From assembly GCA_958295835.1 (NCBI GenBank), contig OY282378.1, positions 4,861,694-4,925,693 on the forward strand: DNA of 64,000 bases, given 5' to 3'. The notes below the pieces were generated by a model. That model was not told the DNA's origin, did no database searches, and saw only the letters and a program-made list of their open reading frames with translations. This document shows, piece after piece, positions 8,547 to 19,893 of the stretch. A program made the position numbers and the translations under genes. The DNA comes from an uncultured Gammaproteobacteria bacterium (lineage in GTDB: Bacteria; Pseudomonadota; Gammaproteobacteria; HK1). The stretch's first letter is position 1. Every line of letters starts with the position of its first letter.

Positions 8547-8704
8547 ACGAATCCGGCGAGCCCGATGGGTAAATGGATGGTAAGGCATCATGTAGGATTC
8601 CCCCGGCCCCGTTCCGCGCGGGCTCGACACCGCCTCCGCAATGGACGACCGACGGGCGGGAGGCGGAAGGCGCAAACCCGTTTCCATCGAAAGGGAGAAC
8701 GAGC

Positions 8705-8995
8705 ATGGACATCGACCTCTCCTCCGTGGCCGCACGCAACGAGGCGATCGTCTTCACCGACCTCGACGACACCGTCGTGATGATGGACGTCGACGAGGGG
8801 CAGTACTACGAGCTCGATCCGATCGGGGCGAGAATCTGGACCTTGATCGAGGCCGCCCGGCCCGTGGCCGAGATCTGCGACGCGCTGGCGGGCGAGTACG
8901 ACGTCGATCCCGACACCTGCCGCCACGACACGCTGGAATTCCTGCAAACGGCAAGCGAGTACCGGCTCGTCCGGGTGCAGCCCGCCGGAGCGTGA
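8705..8995 (+). CDS. PqqD-like RiPP recognition protein (lasso B1-like)
   Basis: This 96-residue protein has the PqqD/RRE fold signature: a beta-rich N-terminus (EAIVFTDLDDTVVMMDVDEGQYYELD), the hinge PIGARIWTLIE, then helices with ICDALAGEYDVDPDTCRHDTLEFL. Such domains bind leader peptides and deliver precursors to modifying enzymes; in lasso systems this role is called B1. The start at 8705 has AAAGGGAG upstream. It is the first gene of the inserted block between glcD and glcE. PqqD-like proteins also occur in exopolysaccharide clusters with HprK-like kinases, so the RiPP role depends on the two peptide genes at 13.7-14.4 kb. Confidence 0.82.
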   Translation: MDIDLSSVAARNEAIVFTDLDDTVVMMDVDEGQYYELDPIGARIWTLIEAARPVAEICDALAGEYDVDPDTCRHDTLEFLQTASEYRLVRVQPAGA

Positions 8996-9157
8996 AAGAG
9001 GCGCGAGTCCGGCCTCCGGCCGCGGCCTCGTCGAAGGGGACCGATGCCCCCGAGCAGGACGGCGAATCCCGCGTGAGCCACCCTGCTCCCGGCGCGGCGG
9101 GTAGGTCCGGCGTTGGCGAAAGGCAGCGGGTTCCTCCTGTCCGGTACCGGTCCTGAC

Positions 9158-10120
9158 ATGGCCCTGTCCGGCACACCTCCCGGCTCGGCGGAGCCCGGGC
9201 CCGATCCGGGGGGCGAGCATCGAAGGGTCTGCCTCGCCACGGTGACCACGGACGGCTTCCTGCCCGGAACGCTGGTGATGGTCGCGTCCTTCCTCAAGGC
9301 ACACCCCGGCTTCGACGGGGACGTGGCCGTCATCCACGACGGGCTGTCCGAAGAAGCGAAGGCGTGCCTCGGGGCGTTGTACGACCGGGTGCGGTTCGAG
9401 ACGCCCTCCGCCGAGCTCAAGGACCGGCTGGCCCGCGTGGGCGCCGCCCACCCCCGCTTCGCGCCCATCCTGTGCCATCTGCATGCGTTCGAAGCGTACC
9501 GGCTGGCCGGGTATCGGAAGGTGCTGCTCTGCAACGGCGACCTGCTGTTCCGGCAGCCGATCGACGAGCTGTTCGATGCCGAAGACCTTCTGCTGTGTTG
9601 CGGAGACCAGGTTTTTCTGGCGGGAGGATACCGTGACGCGGCGACCTTCATGCCTCTGGCCGCCCCGTCATGCGCGGGCGCCGCCGGCGTCCTTGGACAG
9701 ACGTTCAACGACGGGTTTCTGGTCCTCGACGGCAGCCTTCCGGGAGAGCGGCGCTATGCGGACCTGCTGGCCCTGGTGACGCCGGAGACGTGGCGCGACA
9801 CCGACACGCCGCATTTCAAGCAGCTCGTCCACAACCGGTACTTCACGGGGCGGCAAACGTTGATCAGCTCCGCGTACAACTACATCCTGCTGGCCGCTAC
9901 CGCCATTCGGGCGAGGGAGGGGCTTGCCGCGACGGACGCCAAGGTCCTGCATTTCAATCTGAACGCGAAGCCCTGGATGCCGGCGACGATGCTGCGCTGG
10001 ATGAACGGCGGGACGCCGGTCCCCGAGTTCAGGCTCTGGTACGACGCCTGGATGGACTCGCTGTCCGTCGGTCATCTCCGCGCTTCGAAGCGATCCGTGC
10101 GATGGACGGTCGTTGCATGA
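9158..10120 (+). CDS. GT8-like glycosyltransferase, single domain
   Basis: This protein of 320 residues resembles family 8 (glycogenin-like) glycosyltransferases. The nucleotide-sugar block reads RVCLATVTTDGFLPGTLVMV, and the metal site reads YRKVLLCNGDLLFRQP, with N-x-D where the two domains at 17.8-19.9 kb have D-x-D. A C-terminal block LHFNLNAKPWMP with conserved His and Lys is also typical. It is a paralogue of the double protein at 17806-19893. A TTG at 9113 in frame is an alternative start. Its 3' end overlaps the convergent HprK-like gene by 49 bp. The acceptor may be a peptide of this cluster; that is inference. Confidence 0.8.
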   Translation: MALSGTPPGSAEPGPDPGGEHRRVCLATVTTDGFLPGTLVMVASFLKAHPGFDGDVAVIHDGLSEEAKACLGALYDRVRFETPSAELKDRLARVGAAHPRFAPILCHLHAFEAYRLAGYRKVLLCNGDLLFRQPIDELFDAEDLLLCCGDQVFLAGGYRDAATFMPLAAPSCAGAAGVLGQTFNDGFLVLDGSLPGERRYADLLALVTPETWRDTDTPHFKQLVHNRYFTGRQTLISSAYNYILLAATAIRAREGLAATDAKVLHFNLNAKPWMPATMLRWMNGGTPVPEFRLWYDAWMDSLSVGHLRASKRSVRWTVVA

Positions 10121-11052
10121 GGGGCAGCGGCTCCTTGCCGGCCCATCTCACCCAGCCACTCCTCGATTCGATCCGCCAGCGCGTCGAGCCGGAACGCAGA
10201 CGCGGGCCTCCTCACGCCCACGACCGGCACACGCCTTGCCAGCGCCACGAAGGTGCGGAAGTGGGCCGGCTGCTGCCCGAGCCCGCGCAGGTACTTCCCG
10301 CGGTAGGTATGCCTGCACAGCCATCCGAAGGCGTCGGCGGGCGGCGCCGTCCGGACCTCGATGCGCTCCCGCTGGTGGCTCCCCAGCACACAGACGGCGC
10401 GCACCGCCAGCGGTGTGGTCCGGAATCGCTCCACCGGGACCAGATACTTCTCCCACCCCTCCCGCACCCTGCCCCGCGCCCGTTCCTGCCAGGCCAGCTC
10501 GTCCAGCGTGTCTGCCCACAGCTTCATGCGGGGAAAGGCGGACAGCGCCACCGCACCGCCGCCCGCGTCCGGCACCACCCCCGTCACGTCGTCGGCCAGC
10601 ATCGCGTAGCCGCGCTCGACGAGCGCCGCGAGCAGCGACGATTTGCCTGTGCCCGGATCGCCCGCGAACAGCACCGCCCCCGAATCCGTCTCAATGGCGC
10701 CGGCATGAAGGAGGGCCACGCCACGCTGCTGCAACAGGGCGGCGAACACCGAGCCGGTGAGGAAGAGGCCGACCACGTCGTCGCTGCCGCCCCTCGGCTC
10801 GACGAGGATGTCGCGGCCGCCGGTGACCAGGAATCGGGCGCCGTCGCGCACGTTCCTCAGGTAGGCGCCGGGGGCGGTCTCCCACGGGCCGCGGCTTTCG
10901 ACGGGCGCCGGGAGCGCCTCCGGGGTCGCGCCGATGCGGACCGTCACGTCCGGTTCACCGGCCGGGGGGACGGGAACGCGGATGAACGGCAGGGCGATGG
11001 GCGAGCGCACCCACAGCCCATACGCCCGATAATCGAGCAGAGGGCGGCTCAC
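10072..11052 (-). CDS. HPr-kinase/serine-kinase-like protein, candidate RiPP tailoring kinase
   Basis: This 326-residue protein has a complete P-loop (GDPGTGKSSLL, residues 131-141) preceded by LLHAGAIETDSGAVLFA and followed by a MLADDVTGVVP segment, matching the HprK/P kinase fold. HprK-like kinases (LasK type) phosphorylate the C-terminal Ser of some lasso precursors; both candidate peptides here end in Ser. The GTG start at 11052 is supported by a second locus whose HprK copy begins VSRPLRDYRAYGLWVR after the same GTGA overlap. The upstream partner in this overlap is an ATPase fragment rather than an intact gene. Confidence 0.8.
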   Translation of the reverse strand: MSRPLLDYRAYGLWVRSPIALPFIRVPVPPAGEPDVTVRIGATPEALPAPVESRGPWETAPGAYLRNVRDGARFLVTGGRDILVEPRGGSDDVVGLFLTGSVFAALLQQRGVALLHAGAIETDSGAVLFAGDPGTGKSSLLAALVERGYAMLADDVTGVVPDAGGGAVALSAFPRMKLWADTLDELAWQERARGRVREGWEKYLVPVERFRTTPLAVRAVCVLGSHQRERIEVRTAPPADAFGWLCRHTYRGKYLRGLGQQPAHFRTFVALARRVPVVGVRRPASAFRLDALADRIEEWLGEMGRQGAAAPHATTVHRTDRFEARR

Positions 11053-11243
11053 ACGGGATCCACCGTCTTGCCCGTCCGGCGCGGTGCGTGCAGCACGATG
11101 CATTTCTTCATCCGAACGAGCGCCGGCGCCTCGTCGAGGTCGAAACGCCCGAGCGGCGGGAGGCAGTGGTGGTCCGCGGGTCTGACGGGACCGGTGGTGT
11201 CGAAGAAGCGCACGGCCTCGGTTCCTCGATTCCTCGTTTCCAT
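11049..11243 (-). pseudogene. Truncated AAA-ATPase-like gene (N-terminal fragment ending at the P-loop)
   Basis: A 64-residue frame reads METRNRGTEAVRFFDTTGPV, then RPADHHCLPPLGRFDLDEAP and IVLHAPRRTGKT, and ends four residues after the Walker A Lys-Thr. The pattern FF.TTGP.RP.DH...PP plus APRxTGKT is the start of a widespread family of 450-550-residue AAA-ATPase-like proteins. Everything after the P-loop is missing. Its stop overlaps the HprK start as GTGTGA, the same overlap geometry a sulfotransferase has with the HprK copy at 42451. A rearrangement joining this fragment to the HprK 5' end is the simplest reading. Confidence 0.6.
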
Positions 11244-11432
11244 CGGCAACGTCCCTGCCGGTGGTCGTTGCAGGCCGCCGTCGGCATGACCGCTTCCGCA
11301 CGGCGGTGCCTCCGGTATCATCCGGCACAGCCTCGGTCTCGTGCAACCATGATCGGGCAGCCGTGCCATCGTCGACCGCGAGCGCCGACACGCCTTGGAA
11401 CCTCCGGTTGATTCCGTAGAACATGTTCACAC

Positions 11433-11550
11433 GATGGACTCCCTCGATGCGTTCTCCAGCCGAACGGCGGCGGGGGGCGATGCGCCCGCCGCCGGGACGC
11501 TCCCGCACGTTGCCCATGCGCCGGACGGCGCCGGCGCCCTGATGCGATGA
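11433..11550 (+). CDS. Possible 38-residue leader ORF coupled to the cyclase gene
   Basis: ATG at 11433 opens a frame (MDSLDAFSSRTAAGGDAPAA and 18 more residues) whose TGA overlaps the cyclase ATG as ATGA. No Shine-Dalgarno sequence is visible. The stretch RTAA..DAPAA is repeated upstream of the cyclase-start remnant at 17684, where the frame runs straight into the cyclase start without a stop. It could be a coupling peptide or chance. Confidence 0.25.
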
Positions 11551-13434
11551 CGGCGATCTGCGGCACGGTCGGGCGCCACGAGGCCCCGGCGGGCGGGGTG
11601 GACGCCATGCTGGCGGCAATGACCCACTCCGGCGCCGACGTCGCCTCCTGGACCGATGCCGGCGTGAGCCTCGGGCGCCGTTGCGCCGCGGGCGACGGCG
11701 CGACGCCCCGGGGCGCCGCGGCCCCGGCCCCGGCGCCGGACGTTCCCGGCACGGTCGTCGTGGCCGATGCCCGGCTCGACGACCGCGATACGCTTTGCGG
11801 CGCGCTGGGCCTGCCGCCCGCCGCCCGCGCGGCCCATGACGACCGCGCCCTCATCGCGAAGGCGTACCGGCGATGGGGCGCCGACTGTCCGCGCCACCTC
11901 CTCGGCGACTACGCCTTCGCCGTGTGGGACGCGGCGAAGCGCACGCTGTTCTGCGCTCGGGACCACGTCGGCGCGCGGCCGTTCTACTACGCCGAGACGC
12001 GGCGAGGGTTCGTCTTCGCCAGCGCCATCGAAGCCGTGCTCGCCGGCCCGGACGTCGGCCGCGAGCTCGACGAATTCACGGTGGGGATGTGGCTGATGAG
12101 GAGGGACGCGGAGCTCCCCGCCACAAGCACGTTCTTCCAGGCCGTGCGCAGGCTGCCGCCGGGGCATGGCCTCGTGGTCACGAACGGCGCGGTGCGGCTG
12201 CAACGCTACTGGCGGCCGGAGGACGTGCCGCGGGCGGCGCCGGCCTCCGACGACGACTACGCCGAGGAGTTTCTGGCCCTGTATTCGCGGGCGGTGAAGG
12301 ACCGCCTGTGCGGCCCCGGCCGGATAGGCGTCCATCTGAGCGGCGGCCTGGACTCGTCGAGCGTCGCGGTCCTCGCCGCCCGCGAATTGCGGCGCCAGGG
12401 CCGTCCGCCGCCGCCTGCCTTCACCTGGCTGCCGCCATTGGGCGAAGAGCCGCCGGGGGAGAGCGGTGGGTGGGAGTACGATGCCGTCGGCGCGGTGGCC
12501 GGGCAGGAGGGGTTGCATGTGTTCCTCCAGCCTCCAACCGCGGCGGACACCCTCGCCCTGCTGCGGTGCGACGGCGCCTTTCCACAAGCGCACGTTGGTC
12601 CCAACGAAGCGGCAGTGCAGCGCGCAGCCGCCGCGCACGGGGTGCGCGTGCTGCTGTCCGGCCTGGGGGGCGACCAGGGCATCTCCTTCAACGGCTACGG
12701 ATATTACGCCGGCCTGCTGCTGGGTGGACGTTGGGCCGCGTTGTTCGCCGAGGCGCGCGCCCGCGGGAGCAATCCGCTCCGGGTGGCGGCCGGCACCGCG
12801 TTGAGGGTTCTTCCACACGGCTACAAGCTGCTCATTCCGAGGAACAGGCTGCGCAAGTGGTTGCAGGGGGACCCGGAGCCGAGGGCCCGGCGCTTCATCA
12901 ACCGGGCGTTCGCGCGGGAAAGGCCGTTTCCCCCCCCCCCCCCCCCCCCGAACGAGACGTTGGCCGACGAGTGCGCGAAGGGGTCAATTGGAGTCGTTGG
13001 GCCACCGGGGTCTTGGCGAGCACCTGGAGTGGTGGGCCGCCAGCGGCGTTCGCCACGGCCTGGAGTACCGGTATCCGCTGCTGGACCGCCGGGTGCTGGA
13101 GCTCGCCTTGAGCCTCCCGACGGAACAGTTCAGGCGCGGGCCGTCGAGCCGCTGGCTGATGCGCCATGCGCTGGCCCTCGATGCCGTCCTGCCGCCCGAG
13201 GTGTGCTGGCACGAGTCCAAGAGCGACCCGGCGCGTTTCAACGCGGCATCCGACGCATTCCTCGGGGCGCTGCCGTCGATTCGGCGGGAGCTCGCCGCCC
13301 GTGCCGTGCCGCCGGGCCGGGCCCGCTACGTCGACATGCCGCGCCTCGTCGAACGTCTGGAGGACCCGGCCCTGTCCAGGAGGAGACGTTCGTGGTCGGG
13401 GCTTGCGGCGGCCTTGTCGTTTCTTGATTTCTGA
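11547..13434 (+). CDS. Asparagine-synthase-like lasso cyclase (C protein), frame broken at a poly-C tract
   Basis: The N-terminal glutaminase-like domain starts MTAICGTVG. Cys is at position 5 and not 2, so the glutaminase nucleophile is absent, as in lasso cyclases. It continues with LLGDYAFAVWDAAKRTLFCARDH. The synthetase domain has the ATP-binding HLSGGLDSSSVAVLAA at about residue 263 and LLSGLGGDQGISFNGYG. The frame is read to a 20-nt C run at 12930-12949; homology then resumes one frame over (LGEHLEWWAASGVRHGLEYR, YPLLDRRVLELALSLPTEQF) to the stop at 13434. The combined product of about 625 residues has the normal length of lasso C proteins. Without slippage the product ends at 13427 with an unrelated tail. 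Confidence 0.8.
12930..12949 (+). repeat. 20-nt poly-C homopolymer inside the cyclase gene
   Basis: Twenty consecutive C residues follow CCGTTT at 12924-12929. They encode a proline run and are exactly where the cyclase frame must change by one base. This could be a slippage-prone contingency tract or a sequencing/assembly length error. Confidence 0.9.
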
Positions 13435-13683: not shown

Positions 13684-13881
13684 ATGACGCATGTCCCCCC
13701 CACGTCTGAGCCTGAGGACCTGCAGCGCTCCGAACACTCGCCGACGCAGAGCTCCGAACGAACGTGGTCCAAGCCCCAAGTGAGGCGGGTGATGCTCACA
13801 GGCACAGGCGGTAACCCCGATTCCCTGCCTGGTACGCGTGAATGGGGGGGGTTCGGTGGTACCTACAGACCCTCCAGCTAG
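13684..13881 (+). CDS. Candidate lasso-like RiPP precursor 1 (65 residues)
   Basis: The peptide begins MTHVPPTSEPEDLQ and has a leader motif TWSKPQVRRVMLTGTGG (residues 27-43), close to the W/Y-x-x-P-x-V/L motif that PqqD-type recognition proteins bind. The C-terminal part (44-65) contains PD at 45-46, GT at 50-51, E53, several Gly and YRP, and ends in Ser65. A good SD (GGAG) lies upstream. It follows the cyclase on the same strand. If cut between G42 and G43, the first acids are D4 and E11, which does not fit a canonical 7-9-residue lasso ring; starting at G40 would put Asp at position 7. The cleavage site is therefore open. Confidence 0.65.
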   Translation: MTHVPPTSEPEDLQRSEHSPTQSSERTWSKPQVRRVMLTGTGGNPDSLPGTREWGGFGGTYRPSS

Positions 13882-14188: not shown

Positions 14189-14386
14189 ATGACGCCTGTC
14201 CCCCCCACGCCTGAGCCTGAGGACCTGCAGGGCTCCGAGCGCTCGCGGACGCAGAGCTCCGGACGAACGTGGTCCAAGCCCCAAGTGAGGCGGGTGATAC
14301 TCACAGACACAGGCGGTGAACCCGATCGCCCGCAGGGTACTCAGGAAGCGGGGAATGTAGGCGAGGGCTACAGACCCATGAGCTAG
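14189..14386 (+). CDS. Candidate lasso-like RiPP precursor 2 (65 residues)
   Basis: This is a paralogue of precursor 1 with identical length. The leader reads TWSKPQVRRVILTDTGG at residues 27-43. The C-terminal region (44-65) keeps PD, GT, E53, G55, G58, YRP and the terminal Ser, but differs at most other positions. The leader is conserved and the core has diverged, as expected when one enzyme set processes two products. SD GGAGGAG precedes the ATG at 14189. Confidence 0.65.
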   Translation: MTPVPPTPEPEDLQGSERSRTQSSGRTWSKPQVRRVILTDTGGEPDRPQGTQEAGNVGEGYRPMS

Positions 14387-14845: not shown

Positions 14846-15784
14846 TCAATCTCGCATCTCGTAGCCAAAATGGCCGAAGAGGTCGCAGCGCTCGTGGAAC
14901 ACCCGATTGAACGCGGCGACCTGTCCGGCGGTGAGGCGCGCGATCTGCCGGGCGTTCATGTCGGTGAGCATCTCGTCGTACCGGCCCTTCACCGGCAGGC
15001 GCCGGCGCAGCTCCAGGTCGCCGAGCTCCGGGGCCAGCGCCTGGATCTCCCGCCCCACCCGCTCCGGATCCGCGCACATCGCCTCGTAGGTGAAGAACAC
15101 CCCGCGGCGCCCGTGGGCTTCGACGTTGCGGCGCTGGCGGGCAAGGCAGTTCACGACGTGCACGGCCGCCCATTCTTCCAGGCCGCGTCCCTGCCACGTC
15201 GCCGATGCCGGGTCCGCACCGTGCCTTTCCCGGTAGCTTCGGCAGATCCCTTCGCAGGCCGCGTAAGGGTCGCGCACCATGAACAGGAACCTGGCGTTGC
15301 GGAAGTGCCGTGCCAGCATGTCCACCTGGAAGAGCGCCCGCGGCGAGTGCACGACGAACACCGACGCCTTCGGGTCGCGGGCGCGCGCCATGAAATACCA
15401 CGCCTTGCGGTTGCGCGGCCAGTCGTAACCGGCGGCGCCGGCCAGCCGGTCCATGCGTGGCCGGCTGGCCGCCCAGAGCTTGGATGGTCTCGGCATGTCG
15501 GGTGACTCCACCCGAGGGGGCTGGACGAAGCCCGGCATCCGATCGGCCTCGCCGGGCAGGCTCCAGGCCGACCGGCAGGCGGCCAGCGCTTTCCCAAGGA
15601 ACGTCGACCCGCCGTGATTCGCCGAGATGACGAACAAGTGGGTCCCGATCGTGGGCTCCAGGTCGCGGCCGGCGGCGTACACCATCCCCCCCGCTCCGTC
15701 GTCCGCGCACCGGCCGTGCGGACGAGTTGCGCAAGCGCTACGGGGACCGGGTCCGGTGGGTGCGCATCCGTCGCCCGTCCGCAT
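14846..15784 (-). CDS. Sulfotransferase family protein 1
   Basis: This protein of about 312 residues carries a 5'-phosphosulfate-binding loop (SANHGGSTFLGKALAAC) and a 3'-phosphate motif (RFLFMVRDPYAACEGICRSY) of PAPS-dependent sulfotransferases. The ATG at 15784 is chosen because the paralogue at 19890-20876 starts with the same pattern (MRTGDG versus MQTDDG); an upstream ATG at 15823 is also in frame. The C-terminal halves of the two paralogues are almost identical (LTDMNARQIARLTAGQ). A sulfated peptide or glycan product is inferred from the context. Confidence 0.78.
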   Translation of the reverse strand: MRTGDGCAPTGPGPRSACATRPHGRCADDGAGGMVYAAGRDLEPTIGTHLFVISANHGGSTFLGKALAACRSAWSLPGEADRMPGFVQPPRVESPDMPRPSKLWAASRPRMDRLAGAAGYDWPRNRKAWYFMARARDPKASVFVVHSPRALFQVDMLARHFRNARFLFMVRDPYAACEGICRSYRERHGADPASATWQGRGLEEWAAVHVVNCLARQRRNVEAHGRRGVFFTYEAMCADPERVGREIQALAPELGDLELRRRLPVKGRYDEMLTDMNARQIARLTAGQVAAFNRVFHERCDLFGHFGYEMRD

Positions 15785-15828
15785 GGTGGACTCGCCCCCG
15801 GTGACCCGAAACGTGCGTATCATGCCCG

Positions 15829-17683: not shown

Positions 17684-17830
17684 CGAACGGCGGCGAGCGA
17701 TGCGCCCGCCGCCAAGTCCGCACGTTGCCCATGCGCCGAGCCGCAACGTCGCCCCGATGCGGTGACGGGGATCTGCGGCACGGTCGCACGCCCGGGACGG
17801 AGCGGTCATCCAGCCGCGCCGGAGGCGCCC
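17684..17830 (+). pseudogene. Remnant of a cyclase 5' region and start
   Basis: The upstream region of the cyclase gene (11459-11546) and its first codons are repeated here. The block CCGAACGGCGGCG...CGCACGTTGCCCATGCGCC is followed by a GTG-start frame reading VTGICGTVARPG, which resembles MTAICGTVGRHE of the intact gene. Homology stops after about 12 codons, and the DNA then overlaps the 3' end of the double glycosyltransferase. Confidence 0.6.
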
Positions 17831-19893
17831 GCGCCCCGATGCGCATCGGGGCGCGGGAAGGCGCTGCGCAAACGTACGGCCGCCAGGCAGTCCACGTAGG
17901 CGCCGTACCAGTGCTTGAAGCACGGCGTCATCGCGTCCCGGGCCTTCCCGCCCGCCCACGCGAGCATGGCGTCCGGCCTCCACGGCTTGATGGACGCCCG
18001 GAAATGCAGCACCTTGGCGTTCCGGATGCCGATCCCTTCGCGCGCCTGGATCACGTCGGCCCGCGGGAGCAGGTAGTTGTAGGTCGAGCTCACCAGCGTC
18101 TGGCGCCCCGCGAAGTAGCGGTTCAACACGAGCTGATCGGCGATCCGGACCCTGGCGCGGCGCCAGGTCTCCCCGGACACCATCTCCAGCAGGCCGGCGT
18201 AGCAGCCTGCCCGCACCAACCCTTCGTCGATCAGGAGCAGGCCGCTGTTGAACGTTCCCGCCAAGGTAGAGGATTCCCCGGCGACCGCCTCGGGGCGGCT
18301 CCCGACTGCGGACGGCCGCCCCTCCGGCGTTCGCCGGCCGGAGGCGTCCTCGACCGGCAGGTAGGTGACGGCATCGCGGGGCAGCCCGCGCAGATGCGGC
18401 TCGTCACCGCAGCAGAGCAACGCGTCGCGGGAATCGAACAGCTCCGCGATCGGTGCGCGAAACAGCAGGTCGCCGTCGCAGTACAGCACCTTGCGGTAAC
18501 CGTGCAGGCGGAACGCCTCGAGGGAGTAGAAATGCGCCAGCCTGTCGCGCAGCCTCGGCTGCTCGGCGGACAGGCAGGCCAGCCGATCCCGGAGCTCGGG
18601 CGAGATGGGCTCGAAGCGCAGGCGTTCGGACAGAGGCGCCAACGCCTCGCGCGACGCCGCGGACAGGCCGTCGTGGATGACGACGACGTCCCCGTCGAAG
18701 CGGGGATGATGTTTCAGGAAGGTGCCGAGCATGGCGAACGTGCCCGGCACGAAACCGTCCGTGGTCCCCGTGACCAGACAGACCCTCGAAGGGCGGGGGG
18801 CGACCGCTGGCGCGGTCGCTTGGCGATTCCGCTGCGCGGAATCGCGGGTGCTGCCGGCCACCGCTGGCGCGGTAGCGGCAGCGGCCGGCCCGCGCCGAGG
18901 CGGGGCTTCCGCGAAGCGTTCGCGTTCGGGCCGCTGCGGCGGCCCCCGGAACGGGGCGGGGTTCCGGGGAACCACGGCGATGCCCGGCCGGCCGAGCGCG
19001 TGCCGCAGATGCGCATCCGCCAGACAGTCCATGTAAGCGTCGTACCAGAGCTTGTAGCCCGGGGCGAGCGGGCGGGCGGCGTCCCTGCGCGCCCAGTACA
19101 GCATGGCGTCCGGCGCCCAGGGCTTCATGGGCAGCTTGAAGTGCAGCACCCTGGCGTCCTCGACGCCGATCCCCTCGCGGGCCCGGATGGCGTCGGAGCA
19201 GTCCACCAGGTAGTTGTACGTCGAGCTGACCAGCGTCTGCCGCCCGGCGAAGCGGCGGTTGAGGACGAGCTGGTCGTCGCCCACCGCCTTGACCCCGCGC
19301 CAAGCCTCCGGCGAGATCCTGGCCAGCAGGTCCGCATGCGCGCCCTCCCCCATGAGCCGCCCGTCGAGGAGCAGGAAGCCGCTGTTGAACGTTTCCGCCA
19401 GGGTGGGCGCGGCCGGTGCGGCAACGGGGACGACCGGATCGTCGGCCGGCAGGTAGGTCACCGCGTCGCGCCGCCGGCCGCGCAGGGAGTACTTGTCGCG
19501 GCAGCAGATCAGCGCCTCGGGGGAGTCGAACAACTCCTCGACGGAGGCGCGGAACAGCAGGTCGCAGTCGCAGCACAGCACCTTGCGGTAGCCGTGCAGG
19601 CGGAACGCATCGAGGACGTAGAAAGCTGCCCGCCGGGCGCGGAGCTCCGGACGCACGGCGCACAGGCGCGCCACCCGATCCCGGAGCTCGGGAGAGACGG
19701 GCTCGAACCGCAGGCGGTGGAACGACGCCGCGAGCACTTCGCGCGATGCGTCGGACAGCCCGTCGTGGACGATGACGACGTCCCCGTCGAAGCGGGGATG
19801 GTGCTTCAGGAAGGTGCGCACCATGACGAACGCGCCCGGCACGAAATCGTCCGTGGCCACCGTGAGCAGGCACGTCTTCGACCGCCGCATCAC
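17806..19893 (-). CDS. Double GT8-like glycosyltransferase (two fused domains)
   Basis: This 695-residue protein consists of two GT8-like domains. Domain 1 (about 1-300) has CLLTVATDDFVPGAFVMV, YRKVLCCDCDLLFRAS and LHFKLPMKPWAPDAM. Domain 2 (about 360-680) has RVCLVTGTTDGFVPGTFAML, YRKVLYCDGDLLFRAP and LHFRASIKPWRPDAM. Both keep the metal-binding D-x-D. They are joined by an Ala/Pro/Arg-rich linker and are paralogous to each other and to the single-domain enzyme at 9158. It overlaps sulfotransferase 2 by 4 bp, so the two are co-translated. Two successive sugar transfers, or a two-site enzyme, are possible. Confidence 0.82.
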   Translation of the reverse strand: MMRRSKTCLLTVATDDFVPGAFVMVRTFLKHHPRFDGDVVIVHDGLSDASREVLAASFHRLRFEPVSPELRDRVARLCAVRPELRARRAAFYVLDAFRLHGYRKVLCCDCDLLFRASVEELFDSPEALICCRDKYSLRGRRRDAVTYLPADDPVVPVAAPAAPTLAETFNSGFLLLDGRLMGEGAHADLLARISPEAWRGVKAVGDDQLVLNRRFAGRQTLVSSTYNYLVDCSDAIRAREGIGVEDARVLHFKLPMKPWAPDAMLYWARRDAARPLAPGYKLWYDAYMDCLADAHLRHALGRPGIAVVPRNPAPFRGPPQRPERERFAEAPPRRGPAAAATAPAVAGSTRDSAQRNRQATAPAVAPRPSRVCLVTGTTDGFVPGTFAMLGTFLKHHPRFDGDVVVIHDGLSAASREALAPLSERLRFEPISPELRDRLACLSAEQPRLRDRLAHFYSLEAFRLHGYRKVLYCDGDLLFRAPIAELFDSRDALLCCGDEPHLRGLPRDAVTYLPVEDASGRRTPEGRPSAVGSRPEAVAGESSTLAGTFNSGLLLIDEGLVRAGCYAGLLEMVSGETWRRARVRIADQLVLNRYFAGRQTLVSSTYNYLLPRADVIQAREGIGIRNAKVLHFRASIKPWRPDAMLAWAGGKARDAMTPCFKHWYGAYVDCLAAVRLRSAFPRPDAHRGAGASGAAG

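Follow-up and report, generated by a model that had tools for sequence, protein, structure and literature searches.

Poly-C tracts as candidate contingency loci in a cyclase gene and precursor genes for lasso-type peptides of an uncultured gammaproteobacterial lineage

A cyclase gene within a lasso-type gene cluster is interrupted by 20 C residues in the 64,000-nt stretch of DNA analysed here (the window), which belongs to a single-contig genome of 5.73 Mb (G000). The run (positions 12930-12949, plus strand) is a homopolymer that determines the reading frame inside the gene, and at the assembled length this frame is off by +1. Judged from sequence comparison, the tract is probably a homopolymeric contingency locus through which the production of lasso-type peptides would phase-vary.

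The initial annotation of this DNA had described the cyclase as split by the C20 run into halves lying in different frames, which is borne out by profile matches situated one base apart (Table 1). The upstream part, starting with an ATG at 11547, matches GATase_7 and Asn_synthase, the latter over its first half (profile positions 5-168), and profile positions 231-346 are matched in the frame of 12955-13431, one base off from the upstream frame. Neither half contains a stop codon. Simulated tracts of C13, C16, C19 and C22 bring back the C-terminus of the family, but C20 does not. Read out of frame, the gene meets no immediate stop and stays open to 13427, because stop codons are rare at 70% G+C; its product of 626 aa would have an incorrect C-terminus. 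When 33 cyclases are aligned, the tract corresponds to a variable linker, and the family-invariant residues downstream of it would be lost if the frame is off. AlphaFold2, applied to the orthologue of genome G003 plus 16 relatives, gave a mean pLDDT of 53, with the tract region inside a low-confidence stretch. Between genomes, dN is about equal to dS downstream of the tract; the changes are few there and purifying selection on this half is not evident. Among the cyclases aligned or read, such a tract was found only in the window cyclase and its twin.

Table 1. Features of the lasso-type cluster in the window
Feature	Position	Strand	Evidence and remarks
PqqD-like leader-binding protein	8573..8995	+	PqqD 1.1e-20; NF033536 67.5 bits; true start probably further in
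Family 8 glycosyltransferase-like protein	9113..10120	+	Glyco_transf_8 7.5e-11
HprK-related kinase reading frame	10072..11619	-	TIGR04352 4.9e-10
Duplicated block, 98% identity	11289..13682	+	other copy at G000 ~405.7-408.1 kb, minus strand
Cyclase, upstream part	11547..12929	+	GATase_7 1.3e-20; Asn_synthase 1.1e-13; NF033535 279 bits; SGGLDSS motif
Cyclase, downstream part	12952..13434	+	second Asn_synthase half, EYRYPLLDRR, 26 family-invariant residues
Lasso-type precursor peptide 1	13684..13881	+	ends TWSKPQVRRVMLTGTGGNPDSLPGTREWGGFGGTYRPSS; C7 at 13695-13701, in frame
Lasso-type precursor peptide 2	14189..14386	+	ends TWSKPQVRRVILTDTGGEPDRPQGTQEAGNVGEGYRPMS; C7 at 14200-14206, in frame
Sulfotransferase-like protein	14846..15823	-	Sulfotransfer_3 2.6e-13

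A chance origin of the C20 run can be ruled out. All remaining C and G runs of the window have 8 residues or fewer, and the rate at which run lengths fall off there predicts 0.9 C/G runs of at least 12, 0.004 of at least 16 and 1.7e-5 of at least 20 residues per 5.73 Mb. A pattern search over the whole genome located eight runs of at least 12 residues in G000, seven of them 16-30 residues long.

The cyclase gene lies in a duplicated block of 2.4 kb, and in the other copy the tract is C13 and in frame. This second copy encodes a 624-aa protein with a complete Asn_synthase domain in one frame (a single continuous match of 102.9 bits), which is split in the window copy, and has two additional prolines in the variable linker in which the tract lies. 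Of the 400 bases on either side of the tract, the two copies share 398 upstream and all 400 downstream (798/800), while the tracts themselves are 7 nt apart. Over the gene as a whole the copies differ at 22 sites in the 1383 nt upstream of the tract and at none in the 480 nt downstream, a distribution suggestive of partial gene conversion. A comparison of the two copies upstream of the tract gives a fairly high dN/dS of 0.66. The initial annotation had also proposed looking at the tract in related strains. Orthologues from two related single-contig genomes, G003 of the same genus and G005 of the same family, 94-95% identical in the upstream part, carry CCCGCCCC at the tract site and are in frame, which supports a changeable tract. 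Together with the C20 and C13 copies and their nearly identical flanks, this interrupted form indicates that the tract is of recent origin and that 7 nt have changed between the copies. The window copy occupies the ancestral place, its PqqD-like, glycosyltransferase-like, HprK-related, precursor and sulfotransferase-like neighbours being common to G003 and G005. The second copy adjoins a DNA methyltransferase-like gene (named by reading its translation), and no precursor was seen there.

The surroundings of the window cyclase resemble lasso clusters in the NCBIfam type of the Asn-synthetase-like cyclase, in the PqqD-like leader-binding protein beside cyclase and precursor, in the HprK-related kinase and in precursors that combine a W-x-K-P leader with a conserved glutamate and a serine at the C-terminus. 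The kinase domain is C-terminal in the HprK-related frame, and translation probably begins well inside this frame rather than at the ORF start. Serine and kinase together recall paeninodin-type phosphorylated lasso peptides, whose clusters include an HPr-kinase-like enzyme. Unlike in known lasso clusters, the cyclase stays under the curated cut-off of NF033535 (lasso peptide cyclase), its best NCBIfam family: 525 bits are required, and even the in-frame second copy and the G003 orthologue reach only 321 and 332 bits, respectively. Furthermore, no transglutaminase-like leader protease was found in the cluster, the only Transglut_core3 match of the genome lying at 3942158, about 0.9 Mb off; glycosyltransferase-like and sulfotransferase-like genes as well as poly-C tracts are added. 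Near the cluster, at 17806-19893 on the minus strand, two family-8 glycosyltransferase-like domains are fused. GATase followed by Asn_synthase is also the domain order of enzymes with the asparagine synthetase B / CarA fold. The cyclase has sequence matches to 7ylz, 1ct9 and 1q15, though the similarity is low, and its cluster context suggests peptide macrocyclisation as the putative role of the window cyclase.

In eight single-contig genomes we detected 117 tracts of at least 12 residues, 31 of them within 6 kb of a cyclase-family gene, compared to 2.2 +/- 1.8 expected (maximum 14 in 5000 circular shifts). Most of these cyclase-near tracts come just after the start codon of short lasso-type precursor genes, whose products have a W-x-K-P lasso-type leader, a conserved core glutamate and an end like Y-x-P-x-S. 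Among 79 clearly anchored precursors from the eight genomes, 41 carry a tract of C12 or more (C12-C33), 4 one of C9-11 and 19 one of C5-8, and 15 have none; the proportion of 41/79 is biased since the precursor profile was built largely from tract-bearing genes, whereas the circular-shift test is unbiased. The position of the tracts is mostly 3-26 nt past the start codon, and both window precursors have their C7 run at the same place. Long tracts were in frame in 14 of 44 cases, i.e. the one third expected of random lengths, compared to 12 of 18 short runs, with start codons picked by Shine-Dalgarno match and single frame calls being uncertain for some precursor genes that have two candidate starts in different frames. 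Several draft genomes from this genus and family had tracts, and neither a cyclase nor a precursor of lasso type was detected in them. All eight single-contig genomes retain an intact MutS, so that slippage is not raised through its loss, and a defect in mismatch repair was rejected as the cause.

Tract length varies among near-identical copies, not only for the cyclase (C20/C13) but also for the precursors (C19/C17/C13; C33/C25). Genome G029 has tandem precursors at 204.5-206.1 kb. Two of them, with 400 identical nt on either side of the tract, have C19 and C13, and a third copy, identical over 400 nt upstream and 100 nt downstream, has C17. In a separate precursor pair C33 is opposed to C25, the flanks being identical at 200 of 200 bases on each side. 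These copies indicate that the length of the tract changes while hundreds of adjoining bases stay the same. Orthologous precursors on two MAG contigs with k141 names exhibit C16/C14, C15/C11 and C22/C14, of which the C22/C14 case is located at the end of a contig. Such names are in MEGAHIT style and hence probably stand for short reads. An artefact of one long-read pipeline is thus unlikely, as contigs with short-read assembler names carry the same tracts and genomes nearly free of them occur in the same accession series (G033 has one).

The initial annotation had named a length error from sequencing as the main alternative to a slippage-prone switch. The real tract would then be C19 (or C22) and the window cyclase intact. 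C20 is one base away from an in-frame length, neither half of the gene has acquired a stop, long homopolymers are error-prone in every technology, and a consensus of C20 can be one off. Yet such an error explains neither the 7-nt difference between the two cyclase copies, which attest that the tract is real, nor the precursor copies with identical flanks that are 6-8 nt apart, nor the same tracts in short-read-style assemblies and the pattern throughout the lineage. We therefore consider it an unlikely account, and even if it applied here, the reading as a contingency locus would be left intact. Of similarly low probability is the decay of a redundant copy: after the duplication the second copy would have assumed the function, and a frameshift at a mutable tract of no regulatory role would have inactivated the window copy. 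The in-frame state of the second copy and the fairly high dN/dS between the copies are in its favour, but it is the window copy that holds the ancestral locus beside precursors, while the in-frame copy has the methyltransferase-like gene as neighbour. Moreover, the window copy is otherwise undisrupted, the 400 bases downstream of the tract are unchanged, and tracts in precursor genes recur across the lineage. For C20 itself a length error or decay is possible; neither accounts for the lineage-wide pattern.

Alternatively it might be that the tract has a fixed length and that slippage of RNA polymerase or ribosome results in mixed frames, with a low, steady output of cyclase and no heritable switching. 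Transcriptional slippage can arise at long homopolymers, and as the C20 copy is off frame without an early stop its transcript would remain translated. The large length differences between copies with identical flanks are, however, those expected of slippage at the DNA level, making this the least probable explanation, at which we look with considerable doubt. Regarding the on/off switch put forward in the initial annotation, the slippage-prone nature of the tract gains support from the C20 and C13 copies, from the interrupted in-frame form of the relatives and from the precursors of unequal tract length. Its scope has to be revised: with a second copy in frame, cyclisation may persist in a cell even when the window copy is off, and the precursor genes, which had been missed, are the main target in the lineage, the cyclase being the exception.

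Poly-C tracts were also found in genes of other kinds. In G000, C16 (L033:5031-5046, at 2225730) and C18 (L032:4994-5011, at 1481693) each split a multi-pass membrane protein out of frame, for which no Pfam family was matched by the pieces searched. A C19 (L033:6418-6436, G000 2227117-2227135) directly follows ATGGTGATG of a lasso-leader-like gene and puts it out of frame; this gene is fused to a longer domain (FFLQVVPEDVEDLPVDRRQ...RIRTGQF) which recurs beside other tracts (L033, L169). A C26 is situated at the 5' end of an ammonium-transporter-like gene (G000 4444871, L036:4872-4897). In G031, poly-C runs lie in or just before Calx-beta-repeat-like surface-type proteins (L261:3046-3071, L261:7536-7556 and L267:3053-3074). 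The Calx-beta-repeat-like and multi-pass membrane proteins, with domains named by reading the sequence, resemble the usual targets of phase variation.

Homopolymeric contingency loci have been described e.g. for the G/C tracts of Campylobacter (PMC8355987) and the homopolymeric tracts of P. acnes (PMC4746626). The tracts reported here share with the loci of Campylobacter, Neisseria, Helicobacter and P. acnes that they are long intragenic G/C runs, often at the 5' end, variable between copies and with about one third on, that they are far beyond chance length and set the reading frame, and that surface-type (Calx-beta repeat) genes are among the tract-bearing genes. Unlike in the known loci, the enriched targets are lasso-type precursors and, in the window, a biosynthetic enzyme; set against those loci, MutS is intact in these genomes and switching is a prediction from sequence.

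In the proposed mechanism, slipped-strand mispairing would gain or lose C residues. One length class in three (C13, C16, C19, C22) would leave the cyclase in frame and thereby on, while other lengths would leave the synthetase domain with a wrong or shortened C-terminal half, corresponding to off. With the tract in a variable linker, in-frame changes of length would merely alter a proline run. Across the lineage, the usual effect would be to turn individual peptides on or off via tracts early in the precursor genes, the window cyclase representing a less common target within the same biosynthetic system. Ongoing switching in a population and its benefit are what we infer from these comparisons. 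The bacterium is likely to be host-associated.

Most known cases of phase variation concern surface structures, adhesins and restriction systems. Searches of the open-access literature, outside which most subscription papers lie, brought up no previous account of lasso or RiPP genes that phase-vary. It is an even call whether the lineage maintains a stock of lasso-type peptide genes, about 20 at most in one genome, many with a mutable poly-C tract of their own after the start codon, such that a random selection of the peptides is made in each cell and inherited by its descendants, and the cyclase is occasionally switched, too. This would amount to combinatorial phase variation of a natural-product repertoire. 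If the precursors do phase-vary, one clone would make changing sets of peptides, which would bear on the escape of producers from the resistance or immunity of their neighbours and on "silent" clusters. It would also help to show why gene callers miss such precursors: in the assemblies some two thirds of the genes with a long tract do not read in frame, which would lead to their being dropped or annotated wrongly.
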